Positions 35,079-35,288 of a DNA stretch of 64,000 nt are shown one piece after another (within the stretch, counting starts at the first letter, position 1; each line of letters begins with the position of its first letter). The stretch is from Candidatus Zixiibacteriota bacterium. Lineage in GTDB: Bacteria > Zixibacteria > MSB-5A5 > GN15 > FEB-12. Location: positions 186,001 through 250,000 of the forward strand of contig JACZXB010000001.1 in assembly GCA_022571845.1 (NCBI GenBank). The letters are read 5' to 3'. The notes under the pieces are model-generated. The model worked only from the letters and a program-made list of their open reading frames with translations. It searched no databases and was not told the DNA's origin. The translations under genes and the position numbers were made by a program.

Positions 35079-35155
35079 TCTTTGTTTCTTGAGTAAGTTG
35101 ACAAGTTAGAAAAGGCCCCGCGGATTTGTGGATTTTTATTATTGCAACTTTTTAA

Positions 35156-35229
35156 TACTGGGGGGCAGACTCGAACTGCCGACCTCCTGGTCCACAACCA
35201 GGCGTTCTAACCAACTGAACTACCCCAGC
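35156..35229 (-). tRNA. tRNA-His (anticodon GTG), lacking encoded G-1:C73
   Basis: A 74-nt cloverleaf: acceptor GCTGGGG with CCCCAGT, D-stem GTTC/GAAC, anticodon stem CCTGG/CCAGG around TTGTGGA (anticodon GTG), T-arm GGCAG TTCGAGT CTGCC. As folded, pair 1:72 is G:U, position -1 is T and the discriminator is A73, not the G-1:C73 normal in bacterial tRNA-His. CCA is not encoded. It stands alone between the HYR giant and the EVE gene. Confidence 0.93.
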
Positions 35230-35288
35230 ATTGTCGGCCAAAATTAACCAAATCACGCAAATAGTCAAGGCTATTCGGGCGATGTCGC

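Follow-up and report, generated by a model that had tools for sequence, protein, structure and literature searches.

The described systems closest to the locus analyzed here are alphaproteobacterial. In Caulobacter, histidine identity is given as A73, U72 and the anticodon (PMC9976931, citing Yuan 2011), and an alphaproteobacterial histidyl-tRNA synthetase (HisRS) is described as using G1:U72 together with A73 (PMC7590224). A73 is treated as a minor element of this system in PMC5370408, according to which a transfer from eukaryotes was not supported by a later study. On the enzyme side, Gln123 has been tied to G-1:C73 and Gly123 to the alphaproteobacterial state (PMC3937112). One paper considers a single bacterial origin of the histidine trait likely, and the bacterial examples in the pertinent passages of the reviews are alphaproteobacteria only (PMC3937112, PMC9976931, PMC4284800), which are also the only G-1-less bacteria named in the corresponding section of PMC4284800. 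Further, no report of the trait in bacterial phyla besides alphaproteobacteria was found in searches of an open-licence library.

The stretch of DNA analyzed (64,000 nucleotides, hereafter the window) corresponds to positions 186001-250000 of contig C1 in a 2.75-Mb Zixibacteria genome, which is 98.84% complete and comprises 21 contigs. Close relatives carry the name Candidatus Zixiibacteriota, and in two genomes so named (L218 and L219) tRNA-His occupies the positions that it has in G076 and G003, respectively, of the window's family. The tRNA-His gene of the window (Table 1) differs from the canonical bacterial tRNA-His, in which G-1 is paired with C73, in having U-1 and A73. We consider it very probable that this gene encodes a working tRNA-His under Caulobacter-type identity, that the divergent HisRS of the same genome charges it, and that both belong to a matched module that has spread among phyla.

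The tRNA-His gene and its genome

The tRNA-His gene of the window is intact. ARAGORN predicted a tRNA-His(gtg) at 35155-35230 on the minus strand, and the Rfam model RF00005 matched 35229-35156 with 70.3 bits (E 2.7e-13). The folding energy of the RNA strand was -34.4 kcal/mol, compared to a mean of -23.2 for shuffled sequences (z -3.25). A previous sequence-only reading of the window had given U-1, A73, G1:U72 and the coordinates of the gene correctly. It had also allowed for a base-call error, which is unlikely, as an 86-base stretch comprising the gene was identical in the two further genomes searched within the genus and the same ends occur in 78 Zixibacteria genomes. Second matches of the 86-base query (query positions 13-69) were also obtained, and the one in the window's genome corresponded to tRNA-Asp. 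The neighboring open reading frame (ORF), convergent with the tRNA-His gene, carries nearly identical repeats of the type PADITVSNDPGQCSAVVT, and we take its C-terminus to resemble a sorting domain.

Table 1. Location of the features discussed in the text (window positions, unless the contig is given).
Feature	Position	Strand	Remarks
tRNA-His(GUG), mature region	35156..35229	(-)	G1 35229, U72 35157, A73 35156; without encoded CCA
Encoded nucleotide -1	35230..35230	(-)	U, not G
ORF, 1061 aa	31893-35078		
HisRS, 475 aa	C1:178157-179581		approximately 6.4 kb before the window start

A search of the whole genome with RF00005 yielded 46 tRNA genes, and among the anticodons, all 46 of which could be read, one was GUG. 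No second tRNA-His, canonical or otherwise, was thus present among these 46 tRNAs, a check that the sequence-only reading had suggested. The anticodon GAU (Ile) and Ala-UGC were also absent, perhaps because the assembly lacks the rRNA operons. This gap, together with the draft state of the genome (21 contigs), would leave room for a canonical tRNA-His missing from the assembly, with the window gene being a pseudogene, a misassembly or a contaminant. However, the fold is intact, the same ends were observed in 78 genomes of eight families, and the single HisRS match in the window's genome is of the divergent, matching type, with no canonical HisRS found there, which makes such an explanation highly unlikely.

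An equally slight chance is given to a post-transcriptional addition of G-1 in the manner of eukaryotes, whose tRNA-His likewise has A73 and receives G-1 from Thg1, according to the passage on this point in PMC4284800. The Thg1 family (PF04446) had no match in the window's genome at an E-value of 0.001, while a Methanosarcina control was positive; post-transcriptional G-1 is therefore not expected here.

Covariation of HisRS and tRNA ends in Zixibacteria

The HisRS of the window's genome exceeded the TIGR00442 (hisS) threshold, and in its motif-2 loop VWRVDKPGPGRYREF stands where the canonical HisRS of the phylum have FRxERPQKGRxRQF or a close variant. Within the segment VDKPGPGR, KPGPGR takes the place of the canonical RPQKGR, and Gly121 aligns to the canonical Gln. 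The alignment of motif 2, which the sequence-only reading had suggested, thus revealed a non-canonical loop and, judged by its sequence, the enzyme is of the non-canonical type that matches the window tRNA-His. It is approximately 40% identical to alphaproteobacterial HisRS, and no relative was found when viral contigs were searched with it.

The ends of tRNA-His were located by running a pattern on 132 Zixibacteria genomes. A match was obtained in 114 and the ends could be read in 111, while the remaining 21 of the 132 were not matched, had only a false hit, or had a gene that was cut. A covariance model (R1), built and tried on 28 loci, was set aside since the pattern gave the places directly. 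Three states were observed. G1:U72 and A73 without G-1 occurred in 78 genomes, that of the window included, from eight families (f1-f4, f9, f10, f15 and one genome of f19). G-1, G1:C72 and C73 were present in 31 genomes (f5-f8, f12-f14, f16, f17 and five genomes of f19), and G-1, G1:U72 and U73 in two genomes of family f18. In this third state (L139/G124 and L141/G123), CCA was encoded and the HisRS loops were of the G/D type; the two enzymes were not sisters, although the tRNAs of both genomes were 93% alike.

With regard to the Zixibacteria genomes in which both the loop and the ends were known (eight more had a HisRS, with no tRNA read), the loop residue aligned to the canonical Gln was G, D or A in 47/47 U72/A73 genomes (G in 41, D in 5 and A in 1), Q in 8/8 C73 genomes, and G in one and D in the other of the two U73 genomes. 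Families f7 and f8 had the broad backbone of the divergent HisRS, yet their loop was PQKGR and their tRNAs had G-1:C73. A changed histidine identity with a matching divergent HisRS in the window's lineage is thus strongly supported at the level of sequence. The sequence-only reading had proposed either a second origin of the trait or a change of histidine identity; the HisRS loop and its covariation with the tRNA ends speak for the latter, whereas the placement of HisRS in one bacterial group with the alphaproteobacterial enzyme (see below) speaks against the former.

At position -1, the 78 U72/A73 genes of Zixibacteria had U in 69, C in seven, A in two and G in none. The excess of U might mean that the mature tRNA-His retains U-1 paired with A73, so that the acceptor stem would have eight pairs, like that of canonical tRNA-His, and U-1 would be a new identity element. 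Indeed, U-1 was also observed in 27/31 genomes outside the phylum, compared to 22/45 among the remaining tRNAs of the window's genome (a few of them with an uncertain register), and the predicted fold of the window strand pairs -1 with 73. However, the nine genes with C or A at -1 come from three families, and bacterial RNase P prefers ordinary precursors with U at -1, which would account for the excess. A retained U-1 is, on balance, improbable. Under the Caulobacter-type identity that we prefer, G-1 would be absent and the identity set would consist of G1:U72, A73 and the GUG anticodon; RNase P would presumably cut at +1, the tail would be added by the CCA enzyme, and charging would be performed by the 475-aa HisRS, whose loop lacks the Gln associated with G-1:C73.

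Distribution, origin and probable exchange of the pair

To cover bacteria beyond the phylum, 38 genomes containing named HisRS loci were searched, which covers 38 of the 80 loci. Three of them (G132, G133 and G143) were Zixibacteria and were left out, and ends could be read in 31 of the other 35. G1:U72 and A73 were present in 29/31 genomes, a value that is no frequency because the loci had been picked by HisRS similarity; one of the 29 had G at -1. Twelve of these 29 genomes were labelled Alpha- or Proteobacteria, and the 17 others comprised Acidobacteria, Planctomycetota, Hydrogenedentes, MAGs labelled Bacteroidetes and unlabelled ones. In whole-phylum samples, the U72/A73 pattern was observed in 15/199 genomes of Planctomycetota (phylum of G144) and in 5/149 of Acidobacteria (phylum of G135), where both samples contain their matching centre genome and the former also G148 and G153, already known. 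The trait is therefore scattered there and found in a minority of the genomes sampled from either phylum.

Individual genomes showed other combinations. The tRNA-His of G145 (L310, Planctomycetota) had G1:U72 and A73 but G at -1. That of the Planctomycetaceae MAG G149 (L313, L235) had C1:G72 and A73, and two in-frame stops occurred in its HisRS match, in the frame that was read. G166 (L308, L279; Candidatus Buchananbacteria) had C73 but C at -1, and its HisRS loop, RPQAGR, has Q.

A quick tree with 71 HisRS rows placed the 59 divergent enzymes in one clade (95, starred), the alphaproteobacterial ones lying deep inside it; in a more careful tree (42 rows), the divergent enzymes occupied one side of a branch with a support of only 67/58. 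Long branches limit these results, as do three segments that were taken over from PDB alignments, and resolution was weak for the deep branches of the divergent group. These trees suggest that the HisRS of the window's genome belongs to a single bacterial group that also includes HisRS from Alphaproteobacteria, Planctomycetota, Acidobacteriota and Hydrogenedentota, the support for a single clade being uneven. Since this group includes the alphaproteobacterial HisRS, the trait looks shared by descent and horizontal transfer, and the second origin that had been proposed is unsupported.

The divergent enzymes of Zixibacteria fell into a main group (f1, f2, f4, f9, two of f10 and G043), f15, G037/G040, G128/G094/G123, and G124. 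A single clade for all of them was rejected in the 42-row tree (p-AU 5.5e-52). The f3 enzymes of G037/G040 grouped with Planctomycetota and, like those of f15, with Planctomycetota plus alphaproteobacteria. As for a eukaryotic origin of the alphaproteobacterial HisRS, a clade of the alphaproteobacteria without SAR11 and the eukaryotic enzyme was rejected in the careful 42-row tree (p-AU 3e-10), while one including SAR11 and the eukaryotic row was not formally rejected in the quick 71-row tree (p-AU 0.093).

The weak resolution of the deep branches, and the fact that the window HisRS is only approximately 40% identical to the alphaproteobacterial ones, would also fit an independent origin of the U72/A73 identity in Zixibacteria, parallel to that of alphaproteobacteria. 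We rate this as improbable, slightly more so than a retained U-1, considering that all enzymes of this type lay on one side of a branch in both trees, that a KPxPGR-like loop and the specific combination of U72 and A73 are common to them, and that f15 and the f3 genomes G037/G040 grouped as described above.

Linkage of both genes was also analyzed. A tRNA-His directly upstream of hisS and on the same strand (within 2 kb, mostly with 40-130 bases between the matches) was observed in at least 23/71 U72/A73, 0/25 C73 and 1/2 U73 genomes, these counts being lower bounds because the contigs are draft. In the window's family, f1, adjacency was observed in 0/37 genomes. G128 carried the non-canonical pair only, with tRNA and hisS adjacent, and its genus mates G126 and G127 carried the canonical tRNA and enzyme. 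Its tRNA-His was 97% identical to that of G094 (family f10) and 69% to that of its genus mate G127. The pair lies on a 514-kb contig, on which the DNA of both flanks matches the family members G129 and G130, and this is therefore evidence against contamination. Apparently, the whole pair was swapped inside this genus. In G037 (f3) and G123, hisS was apparently replaced alone: their tRNAs were 95% and 93% identical to those of their family mates G043 and G124, respectively, and their HisRS belonged to another branch of the same type. Distances of tRNA and HisRS were correlated (r 0.45 for 55 genomes and r 0.63 for 26 Zixibacteria, reached by 0/2000 permutations in either), a correlation that shared ancestry alone would also produce.

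Transfer probably explains the discordance between the gene trees, and any direction given to it is tentative. The tRNA-His and hisS genes would belong together as a matched module, dispersed over bacterial phyla partly as a linked cassette; where the tRNA already had U72, hisS could also be replaced alone by an enzyme of the same type, and in the window's family both genes would no longer be adjacent. It seems rather likely, with less assurance than the reading of the window gene itself, that bacteria contain two mutually exclusive compatibility groups of tRNA-His identity, and that the U72/A73 group represents a bacterial tRNA-His-hisS module, neither alphaproteobacterial nor eukaryotic in origin, which passed between several phyla and reached alphaproteobacteria among others, the U72 lineages exchanging hisS only within the group (f3, G123).

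Rules of tRNA identity are usually regarded as difficult to transfer from one lineage to another. An identity rule present in several phyla, with genes that are often adjacent and a pair apparently swapped in one genus, would offer a natural experiment on the spread of such rules. Further, the pool of HisRS/tRNA-His pairs that are possibly orthogonal to those of E. coli would be widened. At the level of sequence, the rule already known from alphaproteobacteria was observed here in Zixibacteria, Planctomycetota, Acidobacteriota and Hydrogenedentota.

Comparison with known systems

The non-canonical pair of Rhizobiales, Rhodobacterales, Caulobacterales and most SAR11 has in common with that of the window a tRNA-His in which G-1 is not encoded, with G1:U72, A73 and GUG, a HisRS with Gly for Gln in motif 2, and no Thg1 found. 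The window system differs in its Zixibacteria host and in a HisRS with approximately 40% identity. Moreover, tRNA-His of Zixibacteria often adjoins hisS (not in the window's family), and Asp or Ala also occur at the Gln position.

The chain of PDB 6nhi, which we take to be a Bacteroidota-type HisRS, and the enzymes of f7 and f8 resemble the window HisRS in their broad backbone and differ in the loop, which is PQKGR. The chain of PDB 3net, presumably the Nostoc HisRS, has the motif-2 loop ERAKDGR, which is neither the Q nor the G/D form.

Eukaryotic tRNA-His has A73 in common with the window gene, and Thg1 was not found in the window's genome. The tRNA-His of trypanosomes and Acanthamoeba, as presented in the section of PMC4284800 dealing with them, has no G-1, like that of the window. 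The canonical bacterial pair, finally, shares the GUG anticodon and a class II HisRS with the window system, which, however, lacks G-1, C73 and Gln, while sister families of the same phylum have the canonical pair.
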